Assembly (NCBI RefSeq): GCF_024734405.1
Contig: NZ_CP059556.1
Coordinates: 3,224,001-3,288,000 of the forward strand
Direction of reading: 5' to 3'
DNA from: Saccharopolyspora gregorii
GTDB taxonomy: Bacteria; Actinomycetota; Actinomycetes; Mycobacteriales; Pseudonocardiaceae
DNA length: 64,000 nucleotides
Below the pieces are notes generated by a model. The model made no database searches. It was given only the letters and a program-made list of their open reading frames with translations, and was not told the origin of the DNA. Positions within the stretch are counted from its first letter, which is position 1, and every line of letters begins with the position of its first letter. This document shows positions 31,714 to 61,047 of the stretch, one piece after another. The translations under genes were made by a program, and so were the position numbers.

Positions 31714-31747
31714 GAACGGCCCGGTCGAGCGGTCGACCGGGCCGTTC
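31714..31747 (-). terminator. Terminator of the sulfuryl-transfer operon
   Basis: A perfect 15-bp stem (GAACGGCCCGGTCGA / TCGACCGGGCCGTTC) with a 4-nt loop, placed 12 nt after the arylsulfotransferase stop. It separates that operon from the frameshifted PLP gene. Confidence 0.75.
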
Positions 31748-31758
31748 ACCTGGCGCGA

Positions 31759-33285
31759 TCAGGCGACTTCGGCCGCCGGGGAGTCGCCGAGGACCTCGCC
31801 CCGGGCGTCGAGCGCCTGCACGCCGACGAAGGCGGCGGCGCCGGGCACGTCCACCCGGGTCTCGAAACCGGTGCGCGGCACGTCCTGCACGGGCGCGAGG
31901 TTCGCCTCGTCCGGCCCGGTCAGCACCCGCCACGCGGCGACCTCGGTGGCCCCGTTCCAGCTGGCGTACACGCTGGTGACGCCGTCCCCGGCCTGCCCGG
32001 CCACGGCGGGCCGGTCGAGCGGTCTGCCGACCCACGGGGACCGGAACGCGCGGTAGGAGGTGATGGAGTCGACGAAGTTGCCGTGGAACAGCACCTCGCC
32101 GTCCGCGTCGAACTCGGTGAAGTACGGCTCCCCGCCCCAGCCGACGAACAGGTGGTCCTCGTCGAGCAGCTGGGTGTTGCCCTGGTTCGGCGCGAGCAGC
32201 CCCTCCGGGCTCTCGTGGCTGCGCCGCACGGTCGCGGTGCGCGCCTGCTCGTCGACGTCGAGCACGAGCGCCCGGGAGCGCCCGCGGCCAGGTGCGGCGG
32301 CGGCGTTGTCGAACAGGGTGATCGTGCCGTCCTCGCGGCGCCTGCAGTCGTGCTGCCAGGCGAACGCGGCGTCCGGCCCCATCTCGAAGTCGCTCTTCTT
32401 GCCGTTGAGCCGCCAGGTGACCTCGCCGGTGCCGCGGTCGATGCGGTAGACGGCGTGCGTGCAGCGGGCGGAGACGAGCAGCGCGTCGCCGTCCTCGCAG
32501 ACCGCGTTGAGGTGGATGTAGTCGAACCACTCCTCCGGATCCGCGGGTACCGGGTAGAAGGATTCCTCGATGGCGACGTGCTCCAGGCTGCGCCACTCGA
32601 ACAGCAGCTCGCCGCCGGCGATGTCGATCTCCTGCACGACGCCTTCGAGCACCTTCGCGTTCGCCGCGCCGCCGACGGGCGTGGTGTCGGCGCGGACCTC
32701 GGTGTAGACGATGATCAGCGCGGTGCCGCGCGGGGTGATCACGAACTCGTGCATGTCGCCTTCGAGGCCGTTGGCGGGCCGCACGGTCGCGATGCGCTGG
32801 TAGCTCTCGTCGACGATCGCGAACTGCCCGGTGCCGAAGCCCGGCGGGACGTGGATGGCGCCTTCCCAGAAGGTCAGCACCGGTTTCTCCTGGTACTGCT
32901 GCACCTGCATGTCGGCGATGACGCCCTCGGCGGGGTGCGAGAACCACACCGGTTGCCCCAGGTCGTCCATGATCAGCGCGCCGGGCTGGAAGTCGGCGCG
33001 CGGGGCGGCGGCCGCGGGGTCGAGCTTGTTCGCCCCGGCCGGGGTGAGCAGCACGTGGCCGGGCCGGACGCCGGCGGCGGGGGTGCTGATGGCGACCTGC
33101 GGCGGGTTCAGGTCGGGGCGGCTCACGAAGGTGTGGCCGGCGCGCGTCCCGGCGCGGGGCGCGGGTGCGGCCGCTGCGGCGGCGGTCGCGGCGGTGCCGG
33201 TGCTCACCAGGGCGGGGACGGCGGAGGCGGCGGCGAGCATCCGCAGCACGCTGCGGCGGCCTAACTCGCGCGGGTGGGGCGTCAT
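31759..33285 (-). CDS. Tat-exported arylsulfotransferase-family protein
   Basis: 508 residues. A twin-arginine signal (ELGRRSVLRMLAAASAVPAL) and Ala-rich h-region lead to an export site near residue 40. The body is a beta-propeller of the Arylsulfotran_2 type: PGHVLLTPAGANKLDP, GDMHEFVITPRGTALI, DYIHLNAVCEDGDALLVSAR, FAWQHDCRRREDGTITLFDN, HESPEGLLAPNQGNTQLLDE, and FVGWGGEPYFTEFD. ASST enzymes move sulfate between phenolic compounds without PAPS, through a histidine. It is the last gene of a PAPS-making operon, so it may use a sulfated product of the upstream sulfotransferase, but a non-enzymatic binding role is possible. The ATG at 33285 follows GAGGAGCCGACCG. Confidence 0.82.
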   Translation of the reverse strand: MTPHPRELGRRSVLRMLAAASAVPALVSTGTAATAAAAAAPAPRAGTRAGHTFVSRPDLNPPQVAISTPAAGVRPGHVLLTPAGANKLDPAAAAPRADFQPGALIMDDLGQPVWFSHPAEGVIADMQVQQYQEKPVLTFWEGAIHVPPGFGTGQFAIVDESYQRIATVRPANGLEGDMHEFVITPRGTALIIVYTEVRADTTPVGGAANAKVLEGVVQEIDIAGGELLFEWRSLEHVAIEESFYPVPADPEEWFDYIHLNAVCEDGDALLVSARCTHAVYRIDRGTGEVTWRLNGKKSDFEMGPDAAFAWQHDCRRREDGTITLFDNAAAAPGRGRSRALVLDVDEQARTATVRRSHESPEGLLAPNQGNTQLLDEDHLFVGWGGEPYFTEFDADGEVLFHGNFVDSITSYRAFRSPWVGRPLDRPAVAGQAGDGVTSVYASWNGATEVAAWRVLTGPDEANLAPVQDVPRTGFETRVDVPGAAAFVGVQALDARGEVLGDSPAAEVA

Positions 33286-33347
33286 CGGTCGGCTCCTCGG
33301 AGTGGTTCGGGGGACGCGGGCGCGGTGCCGCGGCACCGCGGGCCGGG

Positions 33348-34010
33348 TCAGGCGTTGCTGAACGGGGAGGGGAACTTCCCTTCGCTCCGGACCTGCTCGG
33401 CGAGGTCGCGGATGGAGGCGCTGTCGTTGACGTGCGGGAAGTCCTCGGCCGGGACCGGCACGTCGAGGAACTCGCACAGCGGCTCCCAGCCCTGGCCGGG
33501 CTGGTACTCCAGCAGCCGGTCGGCGGGGACGGTGGCGCGGACTTCGGCGTTGTGCCGCTCGAACACCTCGATGGCGTGCGCGCGGTCCTCGAAGCGGCCG
33601 TCGAAGGTGCCGTTCCAGATCATCCGCTCGATGGTGGGGCGCAGCTTCGTGGTGAACGGGTCGTCCGAGTCGCCCGGCGGGTCCTGCACGAACTGGTAGA
33701 TGGTGTCGTAGGTGCTGTCGTACCAGCGCTGCGGGTCGCGGGTGGTGAGCAGGACCTTCGCGTCCGGGTAGGCCTCCACCAGCTCGCGCCAGAACGTGCA
33801 GCCCGGCCAGTCCACAGTGGACCGGTACCCGCCGAGGACCTGGTCCCAGTCCACCGGACCGTCCAGCGCGCGAGCCCAGTCCCGCATCCGCTCGGGCTCC
33901 GCGATGACCTCGAACATGTGGTAGCACGGCCCGAAGCCGAGGTGTTCCAGCGCCGCCTTCATCGACGCGGTCCCGGTGCGGCCGAAACCGGCTCCGATGA
34001 TCTTGACCAT
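33348..34010 (-). CDS. PAPS-dependent sulfotransferase
   Basis: 220 residues, cytosolic. The 5'-phosphosulfate-binding loop is at the N-terminus (GAGFGRTGTASMKAAL) and the 3'-phosphate segment is LLTTRDPQRWYDSTYDT; the rest (FNGTFDGRFEDRAHAIEVFE-like helices, LLEYQPGQGWEPLCEFLDVP) matches the P-loop sulfotransferase family seen in bacteria and many eukaryotes. The acceptor is unknown. It lies 56 nt after cysN and 62 nt before the exported arylsulfotransferase, in the same operon as all enzymes needed to make PAPS and remove PAP. Confidence 0.9.
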   Translation of the reverse strand: MVKIIGAGFGRTGTASMKAALEHLGFGPCYHMFEVIAEPERMRDWARALDGPVDWDQVLGGYRSTVDWPGCTFWRELVEAYPDAKVLLTTRDPQRWYDSTYDTIYQFVQDPPGDSDDPFTTKLRPTIERMIWNGTFDGRFEDRAHAIEVFERHNAEVRATVPADRLLEYQPGQGWEPLCEFLDVPVPAEDFPHVNDSASIRDLAEQVRSEGKFPSPFSNA

Positions 34011-34066
34011 GGTGTTGCTCCTAGTCGTGCTCGCTCTTCCCGGTGGCGCCTGGAGGCGCCGGGTCC

Positions 34067-35353
34067 TCACCGCGCTTCGGTGATCATCACGGCGCCGACG
34101 GTGGCGTGCGTGGCCTCGTCGACCAGCAGGCCGCCGCCGGTGAGCCGGTTGCGCTCGTAGGGATCGCAGAACACCGGCTGCGCCAGCCGCAGGCCGACCT
34201 CGCCGATGTCGTTGAGGCCCAGCTTCGCGGCCGGTTCGCGGTGCAGCGTCGTCACGTCCACCCGGTGGTGCACCGCGGTGACCAGGGCCTTGACCGTGCG
34301 CGTGGTGTGCTTGAGCAGCAGCCGAGTTCCGGGCCGCAGCACCGGGTTCGCCGCCATCCAGCACACCCGGGCGGTCAGCTCGGTCGCCGCTGCCGGCGGG
34401 GCGTCCGGGGCGCACAGCAGGTCGCCGCGCCCCACGTCGATCTCGTCGGCCAGCCGCACCGACACCGACTGCGGCGCCCTGGCCTCGGCGAGCGCGCCGT
34501 CCGCGGTGTCCACCGCGGTCACCCGGGTGCGCAGGCCCGAGGGCAGGTGCAGCACCTCGGCGTCCTCGTGCACCGAGCCACCGCTGATCTGGCCCGCGTA
34601 GCCCCGGTAGTCCCGCTCGGGGGCGCGGATCACGTACTGCACCGGCAGCCGGAAGTCCCCGGCCGCCCGGTCGTCCTCGATGTGCACCCGCTCCAAGTGC
34701 TCCAGTAGCGACGGGCCCTCGTACCACGGCATCCGGTCCGAGCGGTGCACCACGTTGTCGCCGCGCAGCGCCGAGATCGGGATCGCGGTGACCTCGGGCA
34801 GCTCCAGCTCCGCGGTGAACCGGGCGAACTCCGCGGTGATCGCCGCGAACACCTCGTGGTCGTGGTCGACCAGGTCCATCTTGTTCACCGCCAGCACCAG
34901 CCGCGGCACCCGCAGCAGCCCGGCCAGCACCGCGTGCCTACGGCTCTGCTCGGTGAGCCCGTTGCGGGCGTCGACCAGCACGATCGCCAGGTCCGCGGTG
35001 GAGGCGCCGGTGACCATGTTCCGGGTGTACTGGGCGTGCCCGGGCGTGTCGGCGATGATGAACGCGCGGTGCGCGGTCTCGAAGTACCGGTGCGCCACGT
35101 CGATCGTGATGCCCTGCTCGCGCTCCGCGCGCAGGCCGTCGGTGACCATCGCCAGGTCCAGCCCGTCGTCGCCGCGCTCGCGGCCGACCAGCTCCAGCAT
35201 CTCCAGCTGGTCGGCCAGCAGCGAGCGGGAGTCGTGCAGCAGCCTGCCGATCAACGTGCTCTTGCCGTCGTCGACGGCCCCGGCGGTGGCGAACCGCAGC
35301 AGGCTGTCGGCGGGGGCGAAGCTCCGTTCCTCCGCATCGGTGGGCAGGCTCAT
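34067..35353 (-). CDS. cysN: Sulfate adenylyltransferase subunit 1 (GTPase)
   Basis: The GTPase partner of CysD; couples GTP hydrolysis to APS formation. 428 residues. G1 is AGAVDDGKSTLIGRLL, the switch region has EREQGITIDVAHRYF, G3 DTPGHAQYTRNMVTGAS and G4 NKMDLVDHD, all intact. EF-Tu-like domain II and III regions follow. It carries no fused APS kinase domain (bifunctional CysNC proteins are longer); the kinase is a separate gene at the operon start. Start ATG overlaps the cysD stop by one base. Confidence 0.95.
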   Translation of the reverse strand: MSLPTDAEERSFAPADSLLRFATAGAVDDGKSTLIGRLLHDSRSLLADQLEMLELVGRERGDDGLDLAMVTDGLRAEREQGITIDVAHRYFETAHRAFIIADTPGHAQYTRNMVTGASTADLAIVLVDARNGLTEQSRRHAVLAGLLRVPRLVLAVNKMDLVDHDHEVFAAITAEFARFTAELELPEVTAIPISALRGDNVVHRSDRMPWYEGPSLLEHLERVHIEDDRAAGDFRLPVQYVIRAPERDYRGYAGQISGGSVHEDAEVLHLPSGLRTRVTAVDTADGALAEARAPQSVSVRLADEIDVGRGDLLCAPDAPPAAATELTARVCWMAANPVLRPGTRLLLKHTTRTVKALVTAVHHRVDVTTLHREPAAKLGLNDIGEVGLRLAQPVFCDPYERNRLTGGGLLVDEATHATVGAVMITEAR

Positions 35354-36264
35354 CAGAAGTACCCCTCTCGCTTGCGGTCCTCCATGGACGCCGCGCTCGC
35401 GCGGTCGTCGGCACGGGTCTGGCCGCGTTCGGTGACCTTCGTGGCGGCGATCTCGGCGATCACCTCGGCGACCGTGGACGCGGTGGACGGCACCGCCCCG
35501 GTGCAGGTCATGTCGCCGATGGTGCGGAACCGCACGGACTTCTCGGTGAGCACCTCGTCCGGATCGCGGTGCACGAACGGGTTGTCGGCGAGGTACATGC
35601 CGTCGCGTTCGAAGACCTTCCGCCGGTGCGCGAAGTACAGCGCGGGCAGCTCCACGCCGTCCTGGTCGACGTAGGTCCAGATGTCGCGCTCGGTCCAGTT
35701 CGACAGCGGGAACGCGCGCACGTTCTCCCCCGGGCCGATCAGCCCGTTGTAGAGGTTCCACAGCTCGGGGCGCTGGTTGCGCGGGTCCCACTGGCCGAAG
35801 GCGTCGCGGAAGGACAGCATCCGCTCCTTCGCACGCGCACGTTCCTCGTCGCGGCGGGCGCCGCCGAACAGCGAGTCGAACCGGTGCTCGGCGATGGCGT
35901 CGAGCAGCGTCACCGTCTGCGCCCGGTTGCGGCTGGCACCGCGGCCCTCCTGCTCGACGACGCGGCCCGCGTCGATGGAGTCCTGCACGGACGCGACCAC
36001 CAGCCGCACGCCGAGCTCGGCGGCGCGGCGGTCCCGGAACTCCAGCACCTCCTCGAAGTTGTGGCCGGTGTCCACGTGCAGCACCGGGAACGGGATCGGG
36101 GCGGGCCAGAACGCCTTCTCGGCCAGGCGCAGCAGCACCGCGGAGTCCTTGCCGCCGGAGAACAGCAGCGCGGGCCGGTCGAACTCGGCGGCGACCTCGC
36201 GGATCAGGTGCAGCGCCTCGGATTCGAGGACGTCCAGGCGGGACAGGGCGCGTCGGGCGGGCAT
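35353..36264 (-). CDS. cysD: Sulfate adenylyltransferase subunit 2
   Basis: A PP-loop ATP pyrophosphatase forming APS from ATP and sulfate with CysN. 303 residues. PP-loop ALLFSGGKDSAVLLRLA (about residue 35); family blocks PFPVLHVDTGHNFEEVLEFRD, SLFGGARRDEERARAKER and FPLSNWTERDIWTYV. The C-terminal GYF end is as in characterised CysD. Start ATG at 36264 overlaps the cysQ stop, and its own stop overlaps cysN, so translation is coupled through the operon. Confidence 0.95.
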   Translation of the reverse strand: MPARRALSRLDVLESEALHLIREVAAEFDRPALLFSGGKDSAVLLRLAEKAFWPAPIPFPVLHVDTGHNFEEVLEFRDRRAAELGVRLVVASVQDSIDAGRVVEQEGRGASRNRAQTVTLLDAIAEHRFDSLFGGARRDEERARAKERMLSFRDAFGQWDPRNQRPELWNLYNGLIGPGENVRAFPLSNWTERDIWTYVDQDGVELPALYFAHRRKVFERDGMYLADNPFVHRDPDEVLTEKSVRFRTIGDMTCTGAVPSTASTVAEVIAEIAATKVTERGQTRADDRASAASMEDRKREGYF

Positions 36265-37037
36265 CAACTGCTCCCCTCGGGAGGTGTTCCAGGTGCGGCG
36301 GCCACCGCCGCCAGCAGCGGTTCGGCCAGTTCGGGGCGGCAGACCAGCAGGTCCGGCAGCCACGGGTCGGGTCGGTCGTAGACGAGCGGCGAGCCGTCGA
36401 GGCGGCTGGTGTGCAGCCCGGCGGCCCGGGCCACGCCGATCGGGGCGGCGCTGTCCCACTCGTACTGGCCGCCCGCGTGCAAGTAGGCGTCGACCTCGCC
36501 GCGGACCACCGCGCTGATCTTGGCGCCTGCCGAGCCCATCGGGACGGTCTCGGCACCGAGCGCGGCGGCGACGGCGGCGACGAACTCCGGCGGGCGGCTG
36601 CGGCTCACCGCGATGCGCGGCGGCCCGCCGTGCGCGGCCGGGACCCGCGGCGGGCTGCCGGTGCCGAGCACCAGGCCCGCGGCGGGCAGCGCCACGGCGG
36701 CCGCCCGCACCTGGTGCTCCGCGGCGAGCGCCACGTGCACGGCCCAGTCGGGGCGGTCCGGTTCGGAGAACTCCCTGGTGCCGTCGAGGGGATCCACGAT
36801 CCACACCCGGCCGCCGCCGGAGCGCTTGGGACCCGCGGTGCCGTGCTCGGAGAGCACCGCGTCCTGCGGGCGCTGCTCGGCGAGCGCGGCCAGCAGCAGT
36901 TCGTGCGCGGCGGCGTCGCCCTCGTCACCGAGCACCTTGCCGTCCACTTCGGACCGGCGACGCGCGCGCAGCTCCAGCAGGCACCGCCCGGCCTCGTCCG
37001 CCAGCCGCGCGGCCAGCTCGTGATCGTCCGCCTTCAC
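36264..37037 (-). CDS. cysQ: 3'(2'),5'-bisphosphate nucleotidase (PAP phosphatase)
   Basis: Removes 3'-phosphoadenosine 5'-phosphate, the inhibitory by-product of PAPS-dependent sulfotransferases. 257 residues, inositol-monophosphatase fold. Metal-binding motif VWIVDPLDGTREF (about residue 90) and C-terminal YEWDSAAPIGVARAAG. GTG at 37037 overlaps the transporter stop in GTGA, and its own stop overlaps cysD. Its position among cysD, cysN and a sulfotransferase identifies PAP as the likely substrate over inositol phosphate. Confidence 0.9.
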   Translation of the reverse strand: MKADDHELAARLADEAGRCLLELRARRRSEVDGKVLGDEGDAAAHELLLAALAEQRPQDAVLSEHGTAGPKRSGGGRVWIVDPLDGTREFSEPDRPDWAVHVALAAEHQVRAAAVALPAAGLVLGTGSPPRVPAAHGGPPRIAVSRSRPPEFVAAVAAALGAETVPMGSAGAKISAVVRGEVDAYLHAGGQYEWDSAAPIGVARAAGLHTSRLDGSPLVYDRPDPWLPDLLVCRPELAEPLLAAVAAAPGTPPEGSS

Positions 37038-37930
37038 CCGGTTCCTCCTTCGGCGCCGGCATCGATCCGCTCCCCCGCCGGGGCCGACGCCCGACCGCGG
37101 GAGAACCATCCGGACGACACCGCCGCGGCGGCGAGCGCGACCAGCACGCCGAGCGCCGCCGCCACCGCCGCCCCCGTTCCGGCCAGCATCGCCCCGCTGG
37201 CGGCGAGCATGCCGCCCAGCAGCACCCGGACGGGCCGGTCCGGGATGCGCGCCGACAGCAGTGATCCGGCGAGCACCCCGGGTAGCGAACCGGCCAGCAG
37301 CGAGCCCACCAACCCGAGGTCGACCTGGCCGTGCAGCAGATGTCCCAGCGCGGCGACCAGCACCAGCGGCACGGCCTGCACCAGGTCGGTGCCGACCAGC
37401 CGCGCCGAGCTCATCGCCCGGTCCAGCAGCAGCAGGCACACGATGACGATGGACCCGGAACCGACCGAGGTGGTGCCGACGACGAACCCGGCGGCCGCGC
37501 CCAGCAGCACGGCGGGGACCGGGCGGATCCGCGGTGCCGCGCCGGACGCCGGACGTCCGCGGTCCAGGCGCATCCGCACCACCAGGGTCACCGCGGCGAG
37601 CAGCACCGCGGCCGCGCTCACCCCCTTGAGCACCGCGCCGGTGCCCGCGCCGAGCCGGCCCGCGAGCAGCGAGCCGAGCAGCGCGCACGGCAGCGAGCCC
37701 AGGCACAGCAGGCCCACCGTCGGCAGGTGAGCGGTGCGCCGCCGCAGGTGCACGGCCGCGCCCACCGGTTTCATCACCGCGCCCGCCACCAGGTCGGTGG
37801 ACACCGCGGCCAGCGGCGGCACGCCGAACACGACGGTCAGCAGCGGCATCGTGAGGGCACCGCCGCCCATCCCGGTCAGGCCGACCAGCGATCCGGTCAG
37901 CAGACCGGTCAGGGTCACTCCGAGGTCCAC
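37034..37930 (-). CDS. TauE/SafE (TSUP) family anion transporter
   Basis: 298 residues, eight or nine hydrophobic helices. The N-terminal repeat starts [20 protein letters not shown], the glycine-rich signature of the family; the second repeat has [20 protein letters not shown]. Members move sulfite, sulfoacetate or other organosulfur anions, and some take up sulfate. In this operon sulfate or sulfite import, or export of a sulfonated product, are all possible. GTG at 37930 lies inside the end of the upstream kinase gene (16-nt overlap). Confidence 0.85.
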
Positions 37931-39402
37931 GAGCGCACCCAGCCCCGTTCCCGCAGCAGCGCCACGACCCGGGCGACGGCTTCGCCCTGGGACAGCCCGG
38001 AGGTGTCCAGCGCCAGGTCGGCGTCGGTGGGCGGCTCGTAGGGCGCGGACACGCCGGTGAACTCGGGCAGCGCCCCGGCCCGCGCCTTGCGGTACAGGCC
38101 CTTGCGGTCGCGGCGTTCGCACTCGCCGAGCGGGGTGGCGACGTGCACCAGCAGGAACCCGCCGCAGTCGGACACCATGCGGCGCACCGCGTCCCGGTCG
38201 GCCGCGTAGGGCGCGATGGGCGCGCAGATCGCCGCGCCGCCGTGCCGGGTGACCTCGGAGGCGACGAACCCGATGCGGCGCACGTTGCGGCTGCGGTCGG
38301 CGGCGGAGAACCCGAGGCCTTCGCAGAGGGTCCGGCGCACCACGTCCCCGTCCAGCAGCGTCACCGCCCGGTGGTCGTGCTGGCTGAGCTCGTCGCGCAG
38401 CGCGCGGGCCAGGGTGGACTTGCCCGCCCCGGACAGGCCGGTGAACAGCACGGTGAAGCCGCGTTCGGCCAGCGGCGGGTGCAGCCTGCGCTGGTGTTCG
38501 GCGATCGCCGGAGTGGTGAACCAGGACGGCAACGGGGCGCCCTCGTCGAGGCGGGCGCGCAGCTCCTCGGCGCCCAGGCCGCCACGCCCGCAGCCGGGTT
38601 CGACCCGCTCGGCGCGGATCCAGGCGTCGGCGGAGTCGCGGACCAGTTCGGGCGGAGCGACCACGGTGATCGGCGAGTCCTCGACCGGGTCCGCGGTGAC
38701 CAGGTGGGTCGCGCCGTAGGCGGCGGCGACCTGCGCGGCCAGCGCCGCGTCGGCCTTCGGGTCGGGCCGGCGGGCCAGCGGGACCGGCACGACCGCGGTG
38801 CCCGCGGGCAGGTGCGGGCGGGCGGCGAGCAGGGCCTGCACCAGCAGTTCCGGGCGCGGCCCGGTCATCCGGGGCAGCAGCAGCACGTGCCCGTCGAACT
38901 CGGCGGCGAGTTCGCGCAGCTGCGCGAGTTCGCGGTGGTGCAGCGGGGCGTCGGCGACGACGCCGAGCACCGGTCCGGCGGGCAGGTCCGCGCGGACCTC
39001 GGCGGCGGGCGGGCGCATCCGGCGCAGCGCTCCGGCGGGGTCCGCCGCGGCGCGCAGCACTCCGGCGGCGAAGCAGGTGGTGCCGTCGGACCAGGGATCG
39101 TCGTTGCGCAGCACCGCGACCGGGGCGCCTTCGGCGTCGCGCAGCTCGATCCGGGGCGCGTCGGCGAGGTCGGCGGGCACCGGCAGCACGATCGGCGCGG
39201 GCCACGGGGTGCCGTCCAGCAACCGGCGCCGGGTGCGCACCGAGTCGACGTCGGCGGCGCCGAGGAATCCGGTCAACGGACCGAAGGCACCGTCCAGCAG
39301 CAATTCCACATCGGACAGTTCAGCGGGTTCGGGGGTCCAGCCCGGGATCGTCCCGTCAGGGCCGGGACATTCAGGCTCCGCTCTGCTCGCGCTCACACGC
39401 AC
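37915..39402 (-). CDS. cysC: APS kinase fused to a degenerate ATP-sulfurylase domain
   Basis: 495 residues in two parts. The C-terminal 180 form APS kinase (makes PAPS): P-loop [56 protein letters not shown] and [10 protein letters not shown]. The N-terminal 300 resemble ATP sulfurylase: PUA-like [20 protein letters not shown] and a central nucleotidyltransferase-like domain. But the catalytic QxRNPxHxxH is reduced to [12 protein letters not shown], and the GRDHAG motif to TADPVEDS, so this half is probably inactive; CysDN supplies the activity. The start is uncertain: GTG 39402 or 39396 (AGAGGT before the latter) are preferred over ATG 39435. First gene of the operon. Confidence 0.87.
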
Positions 39403-44659: not shown

Positions 44660-46084
44660 TCAGTTCTCGCGCAGCAGGGCGCGCAGCTTCTCCACCCAGC
44701 GCCCGGTCTCGGGCAGGTCCCGCACCGGCTGGCCGTAGTGCCCGCGCGCGTCCGGCGCCACCGGCGTCGTCGCGTCGATCACCAGCTTGTCGCTGATGCC
44801 CGCGGGCTGCGACCCCGGATCGAGGCCCACCACCGACATGTTCGGCAGCACCACCAGGTCCCCGGCCGGGTTGACCTTCGTGGACAGCGCCCACATCACC
44901 TGCGGCAGGTCGAACGGGTCCACGTCCTCGTCGACGACGATCACGACCTTGGTGTAGCCGAGGCCGTGCGGCGTCGTCATCGCCCGCAGCCCCACCGCGC
45001 GGGCGAAACCGCCGTAGCGCTTCTTGGTGGACACGATCGCCAGCAGCCCGTGCGTGTACATCGCGTTGACCGCCTGCACCTCGGGGAACTCCGCGCGCAG
45101 CTGCTGGTAGAGCGGCACGCAGGTGGCCGGGCCGATCAGGTAGTCGATCTCGGTCCACGGCTTGCCCAGGTACAGCGATTCGAAGATCGGGTCGGTGCGG
45201 AAGGAGATGCGGTCGATGCGCACCACCGGCATGTTCCGGCCGCCGGAGTAGTGCCCGGTGAACTCGCCGAACGGCCCCTCGACCTCGCGGCGCCGCCCGA
45301 CGACCACGCCTTCGAGCAGCACCTCGCAGCCCCACGGCACGTCGAACCCGGTCAGCGGCCCGGTGGCGATCGGCGCCGGGGCCCCGCGCAGCGCGCCCGC
45401 CATCTCGTACTCGGACTGCTCGTAGCCGAGCGGGGTGCCGCCGACGATGGTGATCATCGGGTCGTTGCCGAGCGCGATCGCGACCGGCAGGTCCTCGCCG
45501 CGCTCCTCGGCCTTGCCCAGGTGCAGCGCGATGTCGTGCATCGGCACCGGTTGCAGGCCGAGTTCGTTCCGGCCCTTGACCTCCATCCGGTAGACGCCGA
45601 CGTTCTGCTTGGCGAAGTTCTCCGGATCGTCCGGGTCGCGGGAGACGACGGCGGCCTTGTCCAGGTAGAAGCCGCCGTCGCCGTCGTTGAGCCGGAACAG
45701 CGGCAGCACCTCGAACAGGTCGACCTCGGCGCCTTCGCGGGAGTTCGCCAGGAACGGCGGGTCGGCGCGGCGCTCGGGGGCGACCGGGAAGTCCTCCCAG
45801 CGCCGGATGAACTCCTGCACCTGCTCGCGGGTGGAGGTCTCCGGCGGCATCCCCATCGCGATGGCGTGGTTGGGCCAGGACCCGTGCGCGTTGAGCACGA
45901 TGCGCGGGTCGGTGAACCCGGTGACGTCGTCGAACCGCAGCGCGGGCGCGCCCTCGCCGAGCCGGGACACGGCGTTGGCGGCGGCGCCGAGGTCCGGTTC
46001 CGGATCGACCTGTTCGGTGATCCGCAGCAGCTGTCCCGCCTCGTCGAGCGCATCCAGGTAGGACCGCAGGTCGTCGTGGGCCAC
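44660..46084 (-). CDS. vdcC: UbiD-type hydroxyarylic acid decarboxylase subunit C
   Basis: Prenylated-FMN-dependent reversible decarboxylase of 4-hydroxybenzoate/vanillate type. 474 residues, equal to characterised VdcC. The GTG at 46084 gives MAHDDLRSYLDALDEAGQLL and sits 4 nt after AAGGAGG; an in-frame ATG at 46105 is less likely. Family blocks: NAHGSWPNHAIAMGMP, PLFRLNDGDGGFYLDKAAVV, EGPFGEFTGHYSGGR (the active-site Arg/Glu region), AMYTHGLLAIVSTKKRYGG and PQVMWALSTKVNP. It lies between vdcB and vdcD in a MarR-controlled operon. Confidence 0.95.
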   Translation of the reverse strand: MAHDDLRSYLDALDEAGQLLRITEQVDPEPDLGAAANAVSRLGEGAPALRFDDVTGFTDPRIVLNAHGSWPNHAIAMGMPPETSTREQVQEFIRRWEDFPVAPERRADPPFLANSREGAEVDLFEVLPLFRLNDGDGGFYLDKAAVVSRDPDDPENFAKQNVGVYRMEVKGRNELGLQPVPMHDIALHLGKAEERGEDLPVAIALGNDPMITIVGGTPLGYEQSEYEMAGALRGAPAPIATGPLTGFDVPWGCEVLLEGVVVGRRREVEGPFGEFTGHYSGGRNMPVVRIDRISFRTDPIFESLYLGKPWTEIDYLIGPATCVPLYQQLRAEFPEVQAVNAMYTHGLLAIVSTKKRYGGFARAVGLRAMTTPHGLGYTKVVIVVDEDVDPFDLPQVMWALSTKVNPAGDLVVLPNMSVVGLDPGSQPAGISDKLVIDATTPVAPDARGHYGQPVRDLPETGRWVEKLRALLREN

Positions 46085-46101
46085 TTCTCCTCCTTCACTG
46101 G

Positions 46102-46698
46102 TCATCGGTCGGCCGATGCGTCCCGGGCCGCGCGGAGACCGCCCCAGCGAGGGGTGTCCGGCGCGGGCAGGTCGAACTGGTCGAGGACCCGCATCACGAC
46201 GTGGTCGAGCAGATCGGTCACCGACTGCGGGTGGTCGTAGAAGGCGGGCATCGGCGGGACCAGCACGGCGCCCATCCGGGAGAGCGCGAGCATGTTCTCC
46301 AGGTGGATCTCGCTCAGCGGCGTCTCCCGCGGGACGAGCACGAGCTTGCGCCGCTCCTTGAGCACCACGTCGGCGGCACGTCCGATGAGCCCGTCGGCGT
46401 AGCCGGTGCGGATGCCGGCGAGGGTCTTCATGCTGCACGGCACGACGATCATGCCGTCGGTGCGGAACGAGCCGGACGAGATGGACGCGCCCTGTTCGGC
46501 GGGCCCGTGCACCACGTCGGCGAGCTCGGCGACCTCGCGGGTGCTGCGGCCGGTTTCGAGCTCGACGGTGGTGCGGGCCCAGCGGCTCAGCACCAGGTGC
46601 GTCTCGACCTCGGGCAGGCCGCGCAGCGCTTCGAGCAGGCGCACGCCCAGCGGCGCCCCGGTGGCTCCGGTCATCCCGACGATCAGGCGCACCGCCAC
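46102..46698 (-). CDS. vdcB: UbiX-like flavin prenyltransferase, decarboxylase subunit B
   Basis: Makes prenylated FMN for VdcC. 198 residues, typical of UbiX/Pad1. N-terminal LIVGMTGATGAPLGVRLLEA (FMN phosphate loop), then FRTDGMIVVPCSMKTLAGIR, RRKLVLVPRETPLSEIHLENML and AVLVPPMPAFYDHPQ, all conserved in the family. ATG 46698 follows AAAGGAGGCGGGTG. First gene of the operon; the divergent MarR gene and its palindromic operator lie just upstream. Confidence 0.93.
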   Translation of the reverse strand: MAVRLIVGMTGATGAPLGVRLLEALRGLPEVETHLVLSRWARTTVELETGRSTREVAELADVVHGPAEQGASISSGSFRTDGMIVVPCSMKTLAGIRTGYADGLIGRAADVVLKERRKLVLVPRETPLSEIHLENMLALSRMGAVLVPPMPAFYDHPQSVTDLLDHVVMRVLDQFDLPAPDTPRWGGLRAARDASADR

Positions 46699-50636: not shown

Positions 50637-51863
50637 TCACGTGTACCAGGTCGGTTCCGGGATCTCGCCGAGCAGCGCGTAGCGGCCCACCTCGACCCGC
50701 TTGTACGCGATCGGGTCGTGCAGCGTGTGGGTGCGCAGGTTGCGCCAGAAGATGTCCAGGCCGGCGGAGTTCGCGGTCGCCCGGGCCCCGGTCACCTCGT
50801 AGATCCGGGTGGCGATCTCCAGTCCGGTCTGCACGATCCGCTCCTTGGCGGCGGCGATGAGCACGGCGGCCTGCCCGCGCTGCGCGGCGGTCACCGAGTC
50901 CCGTTCGGCGTGCAGCAACCCGTCGATGCGCTGCCCGGCGCGGTCCACGAGCGCTTCCGCGGCCCACAGCTTCGCCTGCAGGTCGCCGTAGGTGTCGAGG
51001 ACGTAGAACTCCTCGGTGGCGCTGTCCTTGTCGTCCCCGCCGTAGGGCCACGGCCGGGTCTTCTCCCGGGTGTAGGCGGTCGCGGCGTCCAGGGCGCCCT
51101 GCGCGATGCCGAGGTAGAAGTTGGTGAACACCAGCTGGATGGTGGGCGTGTTCAGCGTGTTGTAGACCAGCGGCTGGAACCGCTTGTCCACGTAGCCCGC
51201 CGCCGACTCCCACGGCACCCGCACGCCGCGGATCTCGACGCTGCCGGATTCGGTGAGCCGCTGGCCGAGGTTGTCCCAGTCGTCGCCGTAGACGATGGCC
51301 TCCTGGTCGGAGGGCACGATGGCGAAGATGTGGTCGTCGGTGCCGTCGAGGACGCCCTCCAGCACGGTGAGGTCGGAGACCTTGCTGCCGGTGGAGAAGG
51401 ACTTTCGCCCAGTGTAGACGATCTCATCGCCCTCGTCGGTGATGACCACGTCGGAGTCGCGCGGGTTCACCGCCCCGCCGAAGAACAGGTCGTTCTCGGT
51501 GTAGAGCTGCTCGACGGCGTCGATCTGCGCGTCGGTGCCGACCAGCCGCACCGCCCACGCCCACAGGTAGTGGTAGCCGAGCAGCTGGCCGATGGACCCG
51601 TCGCCCTTGGCGACCTCGCGGATCACCCGGTAGGCGGTGTCCCAGCGCTGACCGCCCCCGCCGTGCTCGACGGGCCCGAGCAGCCGGACCAGGCCGGATT
51701 CCTTGAGCAGCCGGACTTCGGCGTGCGGGGTGGCGCCGGCGCGGTCGCGCTCGACGGCGTCGACGGCCAGCAGCGCGGCCACGTCGCGGGCGCGTTCGAG
51801 CCAGCCCTCGGGGGTGTCGGGTCGTCGTTCCCAGCGGGTGGTGGTCGGTTCGGTGGTGCTCAC
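50637..51863 (-). CDS. SfnC/DszC-like flavin-dependent monooxygenase (acyl-CoA dehydrogenase fold)
   Basis: 408 residues. N-terminal helical domain (LLAVDAVERDRAGATPHAEV, LLGPVEHGGGGQRWDTAYRV), the middle beta-domain (VYTGRKSFSTGSKVSDLTVL, YGDDWDNLGQRLTESGSVEI), and C-terminal ITGAR-like motif (YEVTGARATANSAGLDIFWR) as in DszC, SfnC and related enzymes acting on organosulfur compounds. It follows sfnG (34-nt gap) on the same strand, so a role in sulfur scavenging from sulfones or sulfonates is likely. A second family member is encoded at 7315-8487. Confidence 0.83.
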   Translation of the reverse strand: MSTTEPTTTRWERRPDTPEGWLERARDVAALLAVDAVERDRAGATPHAEVRLLKESGLVRLLGPVEHGGGGQRWDTAYRVIREVAKGDGSIGQLLGYHYLWAWAVRLVGTDAQIDAVEQLYTENDLFFGGAVNPRDSDVVITDEGDEIVYTGRKSFSTGSKVSDLTVLEGVLDGTDDHIFAIVPSDQEAIVYGDDWDNLGQRLTESGSVEIRGVRVPWESAAGYVDKRFQPLVYNTLNTPTIQLVFTNFYLGIAQGALDAATAYTREKTRPWPYGGDDKDSATEEFYVLDTYGDLQAKLWAAEALVDRAGQRIDGLLHAERDSVTAAQRGQAAVLIAAAKERIVQTGLEIATRIYEVTGARATANSAGLDIFWRNLRTHTLHDPIAYKRVEVGRYALLGEIPEPTWYT

Positions 51864-51897
51864 AGCGGTTCTCCTCGGGTTGCGGTGGTGCGGGTGG

Positions 51898-53025
51898 TCA
51901 CCGGGTGGCGCCGATGGGGTCGCCGGTGCGGTCGAGGTCCGCTTCGAGTTCGCGGACGATGGGCAGCACGTGGGTGCCGAAGTGCTCGACGTCTTCGAGG
52001 TAGTGCAGGAATCCGAGCAGGATCAGGTCCGCGCCGCGCTTCTTGTACTCGATGATGCGGTGCGCGATCTGCTCCGGAGTGCCGATGAGGCCGGTGCGGA
52101 AGCCGTCGTTGTACTGGACGAGGTCGGCGAATTCGGAGTCCGCCCACATGCCCTTGCCGTCCGATGTGGACTTCCCGGCCTGCTGCACGGACTTGCGGAA
52201 CCCTTCGACGGCGGCCACGTCAGCCTTGTCCACGATCTCCTTGAGCACGGCCCTCGCCTCGGCCTCGGTGTCGCGGGCGATGTGGAAGCCGTTGAGGCCG
52301 AAGCGGACGGTGCGGCCGTGGGCGGCGGCCTGGGCGCGGACGTCGGCGACCTGCTCGCTGAACCCGTCGAAGTCCTTGCCGTTGCTGAAGTACCAGTCCG
52401 AGACGCGTCCGGCGAGGGTGCGCGCCGCGGAGGAGTTGCCGCCCTGGAAGATCTCCGGGTGCGGGCGCCCGGGCACCTCGAACGGTTGCGGGCGCAGGCT
52501 GAAGTCGCGGATGCGGTAGAAGTCGCCGGCCAGCTCGAAGTTCGGCTGCGTCCACAGCCCGCGCAGCACGCGGATGAACTCCTCGGTGCGCCGGTAGCGC
52601 TCGTCGTGCTCCAGCCAGGGTTCGCCGAGGCCGGTGAACTCCTCCTTGAACCAGCCGCTGACGATGTTCACCGCGAACCGGCCCTGGGACAGGATGTCGG
52701 CGGTGATGCCGAACTTCGCGAGGATCGCCGGGTGCCACAGGCCGGGGTGGGCGGCGACGATGAGCTTGAGCCGTTCGGTGGCCAGCAGCAGGCCGAGGCT
52801 GAACGCGGCCGGGTCGTGCTGCTGCGCGGCACCGTAGCTGGAGGCGTAGCGGACCTGGCTGAGCGCGTACTCGAACCCGCTGCGCTCGGCGAGCACCGCG
52901 AGTTCCTTGTTGTACTCGAACCCGAAGTCGGTGCGCTGTTCGATGGTGCTGGTGACCAGGCCGCCGCTGACGTTGGGCACCCAGTAGGCGAACTTCAGCG
53001 GTGCGGCGGGGATGTCGGTGGACAC
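51898..53025 (-). CDS. sfnG: FMNH2-dependent dimethylsulfone monooxygenase-like protein
   Basis: 375 residues, bacterial luciferase-like TIM barrel. SfnG/SsuD-type blocks: FAYWVPNVSGGLVTSTIEQR, GFEYALSQVRYASSYGA, AAHPGLWHPAILAKFG, FAVNIVSGWFKEEFTGLGEP and HPEIFQGGNSSAARTLAGR. SfnG converts dimethylsulfone to methanesulfinate in sulfur starvation; the N-terminal VPNVSGGLV is typical of SfnG rather than SsuD. GTG at 53025 follows GGGAGACGACC. Upstream lie a leader peptide with LTRRRHVD and a strong hairpin, suggesting cysteine/sulfur-responsive control. Confidence 0.88.
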   Translation of the reverse strand: MSTDIPAAPLKFAYWVPNVSGGLVTSTIEQRTDFGFEYNKELAVLAERSGFEYALSQVRYASSYGAAQQHDPAAFSLGLLLATERLKLIVAAHPGLWHPAILAKFGITADILSQGRFAVNIVSGWFKEEFTGLGEPWLEHDERYRRTEEFIRVLRGLWTQPNFELAGDFYRIRDFSLRPQPFEVPGRPHPEIFQGGNSSAARTLAGRVSDWYFSNGKDFDGFSEQVADVRAQAAAHGRTVRFGLNGFHIARDTEAEARAVLKEIVDKADVAAVEGFRKSVQQAGKSTSDGKGMWADSEFADLVQYNDGFRTGLIGTPEQIAHRIIEYKKRGADLILLGFLHYLEDVEHFGTHVLPIVRELEADLDRTGDPIGATR

Positions 53026-55334: not shown

Positions 55335-56092
55335 CGTTCACCGCCGACGAGATGATGAGCGTCGCGGCCGCGCGCTCGCTCACCGACGGTGCCGCCTGCT
55401 TCGTCGGCATCGGGCTGCCCAGCACCGCCGCGAACCTGGCCCGCCGCACCCACGCCCCCGACCTGGTGCTGATCTACGAATCGGGCACGCTCGGGGCGAA
55501 ACCGGACCGGCTGCCGCTGTCCATCGGCGACGGGGTGCTCGCCGACACGGCCGACTCGGTGGTGAGCGTGCCGGAGATCTTCAACTACTGGTTGCAGCCG
55601 GGCCGCATCGACTTCGGGTTCCTCGGCGGCGCGCAGATCGACCGGTTCGGCAACATCAACTCGACCGTGATCGGGGACGACTACGCGGACCCGAAGGTGC
55701 GGCTGCCCGGCGCGGGCGGTGCCCCGGAGATCGCCGCCTCCTGCAAGGAGGTGCTGGTGGTGATGCGCCAGAGCACCCGCAGCTTCGTGGAGTCCGTCGA
55801 CTTCATCAGTTCCGTCGGCTACGGCCGCGGCGCGGGCGACCGGGAGCGGCTGGGGCTGCGCGGGCGCGGCCCGGTGAAGGTGATCACCGACCTGGGCGTG
55901 CTCGAACCCGATCCGCGGACCTGCGAGCTGACCCTCACCCGGCTGAGCCCCGGCGTGTCCGTCGAGCAGGTGCGGGCCGCCACCGGCTGGAACCTCGAAG
56001 TCGCCGACCCGCCCACCGTGCAGGAACCCCCGACCGACACCGAACTGCGGGTGCTGCGGGAACTGAAGGCCACGATCGGAGCAGAAGCATGA
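55331..56092 (+). CDS. pcaJ: 3-oxoadipate CoA-transferase, subunit beta
   Basis: 253 residues. The catalytic glutamate is in VLIYESGTLGAKP; other blocks are ACFVGIGLPSTAANLARRTH, DFGFLGGAQIDRFGNINSTV and GRGPVKVITDLGVLEPDP. Works as a complex with PcaI. ATG at 55331 overlaps the pcaI stop, and its stop overlaps pcaF, by ATGA-type junctions. Confidence 0.93.
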   Translation: MTFTADEMMSVAAARSLTDGAACFVGIGLPSTAANLARRTHAPDLVLIYESGTLGAKPDRLPLSIGDGVLADTADSVVSVPEIFNYWLQPGRIDFGFLGGAQIDRFGNINSTVIGDDYADPKVRLPGAGGAPEIAASCKEVLVVMRQSTRSFVESVDFISSVGYGRGAGDRERLGLRGRGPVKVITDLGVLEPDPRTCELTLTRLSPGVSVEQVRAATGWNLEVADPPTVQEPPTDTELRVLRELKATIGAEA

Positions 56093-57270
56093 GCAACGGC
56101 GCTCACATCCTGGACGCGGTGCGCACGCCCTTCGGCCGCTACGGCAAGGGCCTCGCCGAGGTGCGCCCGGACGACCTGGCCGCGCACGTGGTGCGCACCC
56201 TCGTGGACCGCTCCCCCGGGCTGGATCCGGCGCGCATCGAGGACGTCGCGTTCGGCGACGCCAACGGCGCCGGGGAGGACAACCGCAACGTCGCGCGGAT
56301 GGCGGCGCTGCTGGCGGGCCTGCCGACCGGCGTCCCGGGCGCCACGGTGAACCGGCTGTGCGGATCCGGGCTGGAGGCCGCCATCGGCGCCAGCCGGGCC
56401 GTGGAGACCGGCGACCACGAACTGACCATCGCCGGCGGCGTCGAGTCGATGAGCCGCGCGCCGTGGGTGCTGCAGAAACCAGCGGGCGGTTTCCCGCGCG
56501 GGCACGAGACGCTGCACTCGACCACTCTCGGCTGGCGGATGACGAACCCGGCGATGCCGGAGCGCTGGACCATCGGGCTCGGTTCCTCCGCCGAACTGCT
56601 CGCCGAACGCTACGGCATCGGCCGCGAGGCCCAGGACGAGTTCGCGGTGCGCAGCCACCGCCGCGCCGCCGCCGCGTGGGAGGCCGGGGCGTTCGAGCGC
56701 GAAGTGGTCCCCGTGCCGGGCACCGAGCTGACCGCGGACGAGGGCGTGCGGGCGGACAGCTCGGTGGCGAAGCTGGCGAAGCTCAAGCCCGCGTTCCGCG
56801 ACGGCGGCACCGTCACCGCGGGCAACTCCTCCCCGCTCAACGACGGCGCCGCCGCGCTGCTCATCGGTTCCGAAGCGGTCGCCGCCGACCTGGGCGTCAC
56901 CCCGCTGGCCCGGATCGCCGGGCGCGGCGTCGCCGGGGTGGATCCGGACGTGTTCGGCATCGGCCCGGTGGCGGCGGCGGAGACCGCGCTGCGCCGCGCG
57001 GGCATCGGCTGGGGCGACCTGACCGCGGTGGAGCTCAACGAGGCGTTCGCCGCGCAGTCGCTGGCCTGCCTCGCCGAATGGCCGGACCTGGACCCGGAGA
57101 TCGTGAACGTGCAGGGCGGCGCCATCGCCCTCGGCCACCCGCTGGGCGCGTCGGGCGCGCGCATCCTGGGAACCCTGGCGCACCAGCTGCGGGCCGCGGG
57201 TGGCGGCTGGGGGCTGGCGGCGATCTGCATCGGGGTGGGGCAGGGCCTGGCCGTGGTCCTGCAGGCGTGA
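56089..57270 (+). CDS. pcaF: 3-oxoadipyl-CoA thiolase
   Basis: Cleaves 3-oxoadipyl-CoA to succinyl-CoA and acetyl-CoA. 393 residues, thiolase fold. Nucleophile cysteine in NRLCGSGLEAAIGASRAVE (about residue 90), GNSSPLNDGAAALLI, LNEAFAAQSLACLA, and the C-terminal GHPLGASGARILGTLAHQLR with the general-base cysteine in AAICIGVGQG. Context in the pca operon assigns it over a fatty acid thiolase. Confidence 0.93.
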   Translation: MSNGAHILDAVRTPFGRYGKGLAEVRPDDLAAHVVRTLVDRSPGLDPARIEDVAFGDANGAGEDNRNVARMAALLAGLPTGVPGATVNRLCGSGLEAAIGASRAVETGDHELTIAGGVESMSRAPWVLQKPAGGFPRGHETLHSTTLGWRMTNPAMPERWTIGLGSSAELLAERYGIGREAQDEFAVRSHRRAAAAWEAGAFEREVVPVPGTELTADEGVRADSSVAKLAKLKPAFRDGGTVTAGNSSPLNDGAAALLIGSEAVAADLGVTPLARIAGRGVAGVDPDVFGIGPVAAAETALRRAGIGWGDLTAVELNEAFAAQSLACLAEWPDLDPEIVNVQGGAIALGHPLGASGARILGTLAHQLRAAGGGWGLAAICIGVGQGLAVVLQA

Positions 57271-57284
57271 AGGAGGAGCCGACG

Positions 57285-58007
57285 ATGAGCATGCTGCTGC
57301 CGCACTACCCGCCCGACACCGCCTCGCACCCGCCGCTGGACAGCGCCGAGTACCGCTCCTCGGCGCTGCGGTACCCGAAGCAGCCGCTGCGGCTGCTGCC
57401 GCAGTACCTCACCGAGGTCACCGGCCCGCTGCTGGGCCACGACCGGGTGGGCGAGCACGACCACGACCTGACCGCCGGGCACGCGGGCGAACCGATGGGC
57501 GAGCGGATCGTCGTCAGCGGCCGGGTACTCGACTCCGGCGGGAAACCGGTGCCGCACACGCTGCTGGAGCTGTGGCAGGCGAACTCGGCGGGCCGCTACC
57601 TGCACTCCGGCGACCGGCACCCGGCACCGCTGGACCCGAACTTCACCGGCGTGGGGCGGGCGATGACGGACGCGGACGGCCACTACCGGTTCGTGACGAT
57701 CAAGCCGGGCGCCTACCCGTGGCGCAACCACGACAACGCGTGGCGGCCGGCGCACCTGCACTTCTCGCTGTTCGGGCAGGCGTTCACCCAGCGGTTGATC
57801 ACCCAGATGTACTTCCCGGGCGATCCGCTGTTCGGCCAGGACCCGATCTTCAACTCGGTGCGCGACCCGGCGGCGCGGGACCGCATGATCAGCCGGTTCG
57901 ACCTGGCGAGCACCGTGCCGGAGTGGGCGCTGAGCTACAAGTTCGACATCGTGCTGCGCGGCGCGCACGCCACCCCGTTCGAGGACGACGAGGAGGACGA
58001 CGACTGA
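57285..58007 (+). CDS. pcaH: Protocatechuate 3,4-dioxygenase, beta subunit
   Basis: Intradiol ring cleavage of protocatechuate with non-heme Fe(III). 240 residues. Holds the iron ligands: a Tyr in ANSAGRYLHSGD and in GAYPWRNHD, and two His in RPAHLHFSLFG. The N-terminal PLRLLPQYLTEVTGP is typical of the beta subunit. ATG 57285 follows AAGGAGGAGCC. Stop overlaps pcaG. A Glu/Asp-rich tail (EDDEEDDD) ends it. Confidence 0.94.
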   Translation: MSMLLPHYPPDTASHPPLDSAEYRSSALRYPKQPLRLLPQYLTEVTGPLLGHDRVGEHDHDLTAGHAGEPMGERIVVSGRVLDSGGKPVPHTLLELWQANSAGRYLHSGDRHPAPLDPNFTGVGRAMTDADGHYRFVTIKPGAYPWRNHDNAWRPAHLHFSLFGQAFTQRLITQMYFPGDPLFGQDPIFNSVRDPAARDRMISRFDLASTVPEWALSYKFDIVLRGAHATPFEDDEEDDD

Positions 58008-58576
58008 TGCCGGAGCAGGGTGCGCTCACCACGCCGTCGCAGACGGTCGGACCGTTCTACGCGCTGCCGGACGGGTTGCTGTGGCCGGACGGCCCCGAGG
58101 TCGTCGCGCCCGGCGCGCCCGGCGCGATCCTGCTGCGCGGAACGGTGTTCGACGGAGCGGGCGAGCCGGTGCCGGACGCGGTGCTGGAGATCTGGCAGGC
58201 CGATGAGCGGGGCCGGTTCGCCCACCACGCCGATCCGCGCGGCGCGGCGGGCTCGTTCCAGGGATTCGGGCGCTGCGGCACCGATCCGCGTGGCGGTTTC
58301 TGGTTCCGCACGGTCAAACCCGGCCCGCTGCCGACGCCCGACGGGCGCACCGAAGCACCGCACCTGGACGTGACGGTGCTGGCGCGCGGCATGCTGCAGC
58401 GGCTGGTGACCCGGGTGTACTTCCCCGACGAGGCCGCCGCGAACGCCGCCGACCCCGTGCTGTCCACCGTGGAGGAGGAACGCCGGGGCACGCTGGTCGC
58501 GGTCGCCGAACCGGACGGGCTGCGCTTCGACGTCCGCCTCCAGGGCGACGGCGAGACCGTCTTCTTCGAGCTCTGA
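58007..58576 (+). CDS. pcaG: Protocatechuate 3,4-dioxygenase, alpha subunit
   Basis: 189 residues. N-terminal TPSQTVGPFYALPDGLLWPD, the core VLEIWQADERGRFAHHADPR and HLDVTVLARGMLQRLVTRVY. It shares the beta-subunit fold but lacks the iron ligands, as in known alpha subunits. ATG overlaps the pcaH stop by one base; the two form the (alpha-beta)n enzyme. Confidence 0.93.
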   Translation: MPEQGALTTPSQTVGPFYALPDGLLWPDGPEVVAPGAPGAILLRGTVFDGAGEPVPDAVLEIWQADERGRFAHHADPRGAAGSFQGFGRCGTDPRGGFWFRTVKPGPLPTPDGRTEAPHLDVTVLARGMLQRLVTRVYFPDEAAANAADPVLSTVEEERRGTLVAVAEPDGLRFDVRLQGDGETVFFEL

Positions 58577-58583
58577 GGCCGCG

Positions 58584-60667: not shown

Positions 60668-61047
60668 CCGACGACACGACCCGGCACGCCGAGGGCATGG
60701 CGGTGCGCCGCGCGGTGCTCGGCGACGCGCACGTGGACCGCGCCGTCGCGGCGACGACCGAGTTCACCGCCGGATTCCAGGACTTCATCACCCGCTACGC
60801 GTGGGGCGAGCTGTGGGCCGGGGACGGGGTGCCGCGCCCGACCCGCAGTTGCCTGACGCTGGCGATCCTCGCCGCGACCGGCTGCGAGGAGGAGTTCGCG
60901 ATGCACGTGCGCGCCGCCCGCCGCAACGGCGTCAGCCCCGAGGAGATCCGCGAGGTGCTGATGCACGTCGCGATCTACGCCGGGGTGCCGAAGGCGAACC
61001 GCGCCTTCGCCCTCGCCCGGGACGTGCTCGCCGCCGAGGACGGCTGA
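60664..61047 (+). CDS. pcaC: 4-carboxymuconolactone decarboxylase
   Basis: 127 residues, carboxymuconolactone decarboxylase (AhpD-like) fold. Core: VDRAVAATTEFTAGFQDFIT, YAWGELWAGDGVPRPTRSCL, CEEEFAMHVRAARRNGVSPE and VLMHVAIYAGVPKANRAF. Works between PcaB and PcaD; last structural gene of the operon. Confidence 0.93.
   Translation: MTDDTTRHAEGMAVRRAVLGDAHVDRAVAATTEFTAGFQDFITRYAWGELWAGDGVPRPTRSCLTLAILAATGCEEEFAMHVRAARRNGVSPEEIREVLMHVAIYAGVPKANRAFALARDVLAAEDG

Follow-up and report, generated by a model that had tools for sequence, protein, structure and literature searches.

What would a bacterium do with an operon that makes the activated sulfate donor 3'-phosphoadenosine-5'-phosphosulfate (PAPS) and also encodes two sulfuryl-transferring enzymes, one of them apparently exported? 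The question is raised by seven minus-strand genes at positions 31759 to 39402 of a 64,000-nucleotide stretch of the Saccharopolyspora gregorii genome (3.224 to 3.288 Mb of a single 6.34-Mb contig), hereafter the window. Here, we report that this is a sulfation operon and not an assimilation operon, and we favor, on balance, its reading as a free-standing sulfuryl relay that supplies its own PAPS, a unit joining a dedicated PAPS cassette to a two-step relay, both already known concepts. The genes were identified from an open reading frame (ORF) listing and from Pfam and NCBIfam profile searches, in agreement with the positions, strand, and identities of a preliminary description, and are as follows.

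37915..39402, minus strand: two-domain adenosine-5'-phosphosulfate (APS) kinase (Pfam APS_kinase, 187 bits; PUA_2, 65 bits)
37034..37930, minus strand: TauE/SafE (TSUP) family transporter (PF01925, 134 bits)
36264..37037, minus strand: CysQ-like 3'(2'),5'-bisphosphate nucleotidase (PF00459, 104 bits)
35353..36264, minus strand: CysD, sulfate adenylyltransferase small subunit (TIGR02039, 436 bits, over the cut-off)
34067..35353, minus strand: CysN, sulfate adenylyltransferase GTPase subunit (TIGR02034, 540 bits, over the cut-off)
33348..34010, minus strand: sulfotransferase (ST) of the Cpz8 type (Sulfotransfer_4, PF17784, 244 bits)
31759..33285, minus strand: exported aryl sulfotransferase (ASST) of the Cpz4 type (Arylsulfotran_2, PF14269, 190 bits)

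The two sulfotransferases

As described in PMC6731281 and PMC4257720, sulfation in caprazamycin biosynthesis begins with the PAPS-dependent Cpz8, which sulfates a triketide pyrone, and the PAPS-independent Cpz4 then moves the group to the aminoribose. The two steps are also set out in PMC13426309, by which account Cpz4 favors sugar hydroxyls over phenolic ones; a type III polyketide synthase (PKS) is required (Tang 2013).

The best solved match of the window ST was Cpz8 (9kf1/9kf2), followed by SgdX2, and its predicted structure (predicted local distance difference test [pLDDT], 88.6) had Cpz8 with bound 3'-phosphoadenosine-5'-phosphate (PAP) as top fold match (9kf2; template modeling [TM] score, 0.85/0.88). 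Sequence and fold thus agreed on an enzyme of the Cpz8 kind. RTGT (residues 11 to 14), R91, and S99 were invariant in 24/24 aligned sequences, the window's included. No export signal was seen in the ST, which by homology would be PAPS dependent.

For the ASST, the best solved match was Cpz4 (9kf4/9kf6), with the Escherichia coli ASST next, and the top fold match of the predicted structure (pLDDT, 87.1) was again Cpz4 (9kf4; TM score, 0.85/0.93). Residues H179, H258, N260, R274, and H312 were invariant in 23/23 aligned sequences, including the window's, and a profile alignment, in which the E. coli match was weak (19 bits), placed them at H252, H356, N358, R374, and H436 of the E. coli enzyme. 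The active site of that enzyme is described with six named residues, T501 among them, and with H436 as the residue transiently sulfated (PMC13426309); five of the six are therefore conserved here, and T501 was not placed by the alignment. The N-terminus carries a twin-arginine pattern (GRRSVLRML), and by simple patterns the N-termini of 28 ASST sequences divided into twin-arginine (18), lipobox (3), and other hydrophobic segments (7), so that the N-termini look exported. The E. coli CFT073 arylsulfate sulfotransferase is alike in its five aligned active-site residues, its fold, and its export, but shares only 17% identity with the window ASST. To our knowledge, it is linked to neither PAPS genes nor an ST partner.

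Sulfation and assimilation

A single APS kinase was found in the genome, and it lies in the operon. Genes for sulfite reductase (Sir), CysH, CysD, and CysN form an assimilation locus at 5.05 Mb, 1.8 Mb from the operon. The CysH of that locus carries CC...CxxC, which we take to be the cysteine motif of APS reductases and to mark this CysH as APS-type; assimilation should therefore not need PAPS. Judged by identities of 65% and 56% to the copies at 5.05 Mb, the CysD and CysN of the operon are diverged second copies. Sir gave no match at an E value of ≤1e-5 in the window or in the loci of 34 relatives (about 10 kb or less per side), and the only CysH matches there at the same threshold (26 to 29%) all fell at CysD positions; the positive control for this search, L082, was recovered.

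The preliminary description had called the operon one for sulfation, not assimilation, and this is borne out, as the only APS kinase found sits here and the assimilation locus is separate, with an APS-type CysH. Its statement that no APS/PAPS reductase or sulfite reductase is present holds for the window at the threshold used, beyond the weak CysH matches on CysD, and the linkage of cysH or sir in relatives, which it had named as grounds for giving up its reading, was not seen in the 34 loci. It had also called the operon self-contained, which is correct for PAPS supply and use and goes too far for the sulfated product, as the operon has no gene for making a carrier or an acceptor. No biosynthetic core gene for the acceptor was found among the seven operon genes and three scanned neighbors (Pfam), and no natural-product cluster genes among the 20 window proteins scanned.

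PAPS supply and removal of PAP

The P-loop of the APS kinase is intact (GLSGAGKS, at residue 322), and the same sequence occurs in 20/21 relatives, with GLPASGKS in L107. Its N-terminal domain resembles ATP sulfurylase, with a Pfam score for the catalytic part below the cut-off; the stretch around PLHHRE deviates from the active-enzyme motif, and a GRDH-like motif was not found in the 18 relatives' loci with this domain. Since we take the PLHHRE- and GRDH-region motifs to be the catalytic motifs of ATP sulfurylase, the domain looks degenerate. The best solved match of the whole protein was 3cr8, the two-domain APS kinase of Thiobacillus denitrificans. In both proteins a kinase is fused to a sulfurylase-like domain, inactive in 3cr8 and apparently degenerate beside an intact kinase here; unlike the 3cr8 gene, that of the window neighbors CysD and CysN in a sulfation operon. 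As the domain looks degenerate and sulfurylase activity is described as absent from its 3cr8 relative (PMC13213808), APS should come from CysD/CysN.

The phosphatase had CysQ (TIGR01331) as its best NCBIfam match, at 97 bits and thus below the model cut-off of 229, and would remove PAP. The TauE-family gene was present in 18/18 loci with CysD/CysN and was not found in 4/4 loci with APS kinase but without CysD/CysN. Sulfate uptake is its probable role, preferred because its occurrence follows CysD/CysN and is independent of the ASST; function in TSUP proteins is described as not predictable from sequence (PMC5840216). For the same reason it was rejected as an exporter of the carrier: it was not found in the ASST-bearing genomes G013, G123, G119, and G078 and was present in five loci without a linked ASST.

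Distribution and phylogeny

Relatives were drawn from a family sample (150 genomes) and a class sample (394 genomes; thresholds of 1e-60 for ASST and 1e-30 for ST, with about three ASST candidates scored per genome). Operon genomes beyond the genus sample were located via the ST itself, by which Saccharopolyspora species without ST would escape, and part of the gene calling in relatives was by base composition, which is crude and misses genes.

Searching genomes for conserved synteny had been proposed as a check, and six core genes keep the same order in 18 genomes (L034 to L046, of which L034 is G137 and L035 is G046; G120; G101; G079; the window; and G129), more than expected by chance, though some of these closely duplicate one another (G079 and HNM0986). 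Of 29 ST-found loci with organism names, 13 are from Saccharopolyspora, and these are the 13 most alike. The ST was present in 6/6 sampled genomes of the window's genus, all six with the full seven-gene set. The ASST gene follows the ST gene in 13/18 operon genomes, and an ASST is encoded somewhere in all 18. The five without a linked ASST (oryzae, hirsuta, kobensis, indica, and G129) all have an unlinked one, and L036 showed no ASST despite 10 kb of sequence after the ST. As these five group together in the ST tree (97/93), a single ASST loss is the simplest reading. An unlinked ASST paralogue was observed in L109 and L110, in a neighborhood common to S. hirsuta and S. indica, genomes without an operon ASST.

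Within the family sample, ASST was found in 40/150 genomes, ST in 27/150, and both in 19, with the two genes adjacent in 15 of the 19 and apart in G012, G031, G052, and G129. The set of APS kinase, CysQ, ST, and ASST occurs in four arrangements: that of Saccharopolyspora; APS kinase-CysQ-ST-ASST in G013, where CysD, CysN, and TauE were not found; ASST-APS kinase-CysQ-ST in G119 and G078, flanked by large type I PKS-like genes recognized by eye; and ASST-ST-membrane mannosyltransferase-like protein-APS kinase-luciferase-like protein-CysQ in G123, with a divergent type III PKS. This recurrence speaks for a joint action of ST and ASST with PAPS supply and PAP removal. G116 and G037 have ST-ASST, and PAPS genes were not found in the sequence stretch examined.

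Two of these arrangements are of interest in their own right. The ASST-APS kinase-CysQ-ST module amid type I PKS-like genes (L113 and L114, about 4 to 17 kb) is a candidate sulfated-polyketide cluster. In L107 (about 9 to 18 kb), a type III PKS diverges from ASST-ST, accompanied by a PMT_2 membrane protein, a luciferase-like protein, and ABC genes, a Cpz-like set within the window's own family.

ST and ASST trees were built from chosen rows, and their main split agrees. Cpz8 and Cpz4 group with G123, G119, and G078 (ST tree, 99/96; ASST tree, 99/98), and the window, other Saccharopolyspora, G013, and G116 fall outside this Cpz-type clade in both trees. The latter form a group of their own in the ASST tree (91/86), where unlinked ASSTs make up two further groups; in the ST tree, the rows on the window's side mix with rows without a linked ASST (G012, Halopolyspora, and Phytoactinopolyspora). 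A first ASST tree with fewer cluster-embedded rows had weak deep forks (62/61).

Comparison with described systems

The preliminary description knew of no pathway with this exact gene set, which is wrong for the core, since the ST and ASST match the Cpz8/Cpz4 relay and clusters of PAPS genes with a sulfotransferase are also in print (PMC12135136, PMC7081687). Among the matches listed, in a search that covered few subscription journals, no literature on exactly this gene set was found.

Like the caprazamycin system of Streptomyces sp. MK730-62F2, the window combines a Cpz8-type ST with a Cpz4-type ASST, each with its top solved match there. In the window, unlike that system, the PAPS genes share an operon with ST and ASST, both enzymes lie outside the Cpz-type clade, and the type III PKS has no counterpart over the cut-off in this genome (PF00195; one match below it, at 21.8 bits). 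Of 16 genomes whose linked pair lies outside the Cpz-type clade, 11 (the window's among them) had no type III PKS scoring over the cut-off; the remaining five had one or more, unlinked to the pair. A type III PKS was thus rejected as the source of the carrier. Because neither the carrier synthase nor a place in the Cpz-type clade was found, the operon does not belong to the caprazamycin system, though it looks as if it works like the Cpz8/Cpz4 relay.

The adp cassette of Streptomyces davaonensis, as described in PMC12135136, likewise groups an ST with dedicated APS kinase, CysD, and CysN genes in a single operon, but with its own type III PKS and with one ST as its only sulfating enzyme. By the same account, S. 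davaonensis has another two sets of PAPS genes; in the window's genome, a single APS kinase was found.

Proposed pathway and alternatives

From the protein families, the only APS kinase found, the catalytic residues, both fold matches, the export pattern, and the conserved linkage, we infer the following reactions and their order, together with the direction of the transporter and the export of the carrier. Sulfate would enter via the TauE-family protein and be turned into APS by CysD/CysN, and the two-domain APS kinase would turn APS into PAPS. In the cytoplasm, the Cpz8-type ST would load the sulfuryl group onto a small phenolic or alcoholic carrier, and the CysQ-like phosphatase would clear the resulting PAP. 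The sulfated carrier would exit the cell, and the Tat-exported Cpz4-type ASST would take the sulfuryl group on H312 and hand it over to an extracellular end acceptor. That the carrier is a type III polyketide pyrone, as it is for caprazamycin, is improbable, given that the genome has no synthase of this kind over the cut-off.

The relay is favored because the two enzymes have as their best solved matches the two halves of the same known relay, because ST and ASST are adjacent in most genomes with both and share the main split of their trees, because five of the six E. coli active-site residues are conserved, because the four-enzyme set recurs in four arrangements, and because every operon genome has an ASST, 13 linked and 5 unlinked. 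Several observations weigh on the other side. The carrier must cross the membrane, and neither a putative exporter nor a carrier gene was identified in the operon. The ST is kept without an operon ASST in 5 of the 18 genomes, and in the family sample 21/40 ASST genomes had no ST and 8/27 ST genomes no ASST at the threshold used. In the class sample, ASST was found in 11/394 genomes and ST in 55/394, with both in this genome only; of the others, 10 had ASST, 54 had ST, and none had both. The pair is therefore rare outside the family, and each enzyme is also found alone. A major facilitator superfamily (MFS) transporter follows the ASST on the same strand in six loci of the second Saccharopolyspora group (L037 to L040, L042, and L043; 30 to 32% alike to the window's) and is a possible exporter.

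A broader form of the relay can be put forward tentatively, a general extracellular sulfation system of Saccharopolyspora in which PAPS is used inside the cell to sulfate a carrier from ordinary metabolism, this carrier shuttles across the membrane, and the exported enzyme sulfates cell-surface or secreted molecules.

We think it unlikely that one PAPS operon instead serves two independent sulfations, the ST making a finished sulfated metabolite and the ASST using aryl sulfates from the environment, such as soil or plant phenolic sulfates, independently of the ST. The operon genomes whose ST has no linked ASST and the family genomes whose ASST has no ST are what this explanation would lead one to expect, and PMC13426309 suggests that substrates of the E. 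coli ASST are present in urine; the adjacency of the pair in 15/19 genomes, the parallel main split of the trees, and the origin of both closest solved matches in one relay argue against it.

It is quite unlikely that the operon provides the sulfation step for a natural product with its core genes elsewhere in the genome and, as for Cpz4, a secreted antibiotic-like compound as acceptor. This explanation is compatible with the relay, from which it differs in the acceptor, and related modules, beside a type III PKS (G123) and between type I PKS-like genes (G119 and G078), lie in probable biosynthetic clusters. The Saccharopolyspora lineage, however, stands apart from the cluster-embedded lineage in both trees. 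Because the operon is kept in 6/6 sampled genomes of the genus, and in varied neighborhoods in the second Saccharopolyspora group, it is more like a core function; rhamnosidase and threonine-synthase-like neighbors were not found beside it in that group.

Detoxification, in which the ST would tag toxic phenols with sulfate for export, is very improbable. The fold family includes Schistosoma drug-binding sulfotransferases, and the same window holds a VdcB/UbiD-type decarboxylase pair that could form phenols as well as pca genes, but the exported ASST is left unexplained, and the decarboxylase genes belong to the genus-wide synteny and did not turn up near the operon in the loci of the other group examined.

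That the operon is a duplicated sulfate-assimilation operon, as its second copies of CysD and CysN might suggest, has next to no probability, and the gene content already speaks against it, with cysH and sir unlinked in the loci examined and with an assimilation locus that has its own CysD/CysN and whose APS-type CysH should work without PAPS.

Operon layout and other features of the window

The first five genes overlap by 16, 4, 1, and 1 bp, and gaps of 56 bp (CysN-ST) and 62 bp (ST-ASST) precede the last two, each with its own ribosome-binding-like sequence. Because only the first five genes overlap, the earlier wording of seven coupled genes is a little strong. The start of the APS kinase gene is ambiguous (GTG at 39402 or GTG at 39396). 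One further feature follows the ASST gene.

31714..31747, minus strand: hairpin 3' of the ASST gene (perfect 15-bp stem, CCGC loop, no T-run)

Over a 76-nucleotide stretch, the hairpin folds at −46.6 kcal/mol (z, −3.21; equally stable shuffles, 0/200). The 15-bp terminator of the preliminary description is thus present as a perfect hairpin, and resembles a terminator without being a canonical intrinsic one, because no T-run follows the stem.

A VdcB-type UbiX (298 bits; VdcB cut-off, 290) and a UbiD-like ORF recognized by eye lie at 44660 to 46698 on the minus strand and form a probable nonoxidative hydroxyarylic acid decarboxylase. As a source of phenol, this pair (44.7 to 46.7 kb) was considered only a lead, because it is kept in 5/5 same-genus genomes examined, as are other neighbors; it was not found in the loci of other groups examined. 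SfnG dimethylsulfone monooxygenase (591 bits) and an SfnB/DszC-like oxidoreductase (below those cut-offs) at 50637 to 53025 (minus strand) are, by these profile matches, a sulfur-scavenging pair. Protocatechuate (pca) catabolic genes at 56089 to 61047 (plus strand) encode a PcaF-like thiolase (below the PcaF cut-off), PcaB, and PcaC. A selenocysteine system spans 151 to 12983, with tRNA-Sec (9328 to 9423), SelD (6158 to 7180, minus strand), SelB (11208 to 12983, plus strand), and, recognized by eye, a SelA-like ORF (9922 to 11217, plus strand) and a formate-dehydrogenase-like gene in two ORFs (151 to 2781 and 2890 to 3450, minus strand), which is perhaps a selenoprotein.

Significance

The natural acceptors of most bacterial ASSTs of this kind are described as unidentified (PMC13426309). 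Here, one operon ties an exported ASST to the enzyme that likely makes its donor and to the one APS kinase found in the genome, and donor, carrier, and acceptor could therefore be traced by single-gene deletions. The self-supplied module in 18 genomes, 13 of them with a linked ASST, suggests that two-step sulfation extends beyond liponucleoside antibiotics and that in most of these genomes the carrier need not be a type III polyketide. If the operon does serve general extracellular sulfation in Saccharopolyspora, sulfation outside the cell would be driven without PAPS outside, and the caprazamycin pair would be one specialized offshoot of a broader mechanism, which would also operate outside any natural-product cluster.

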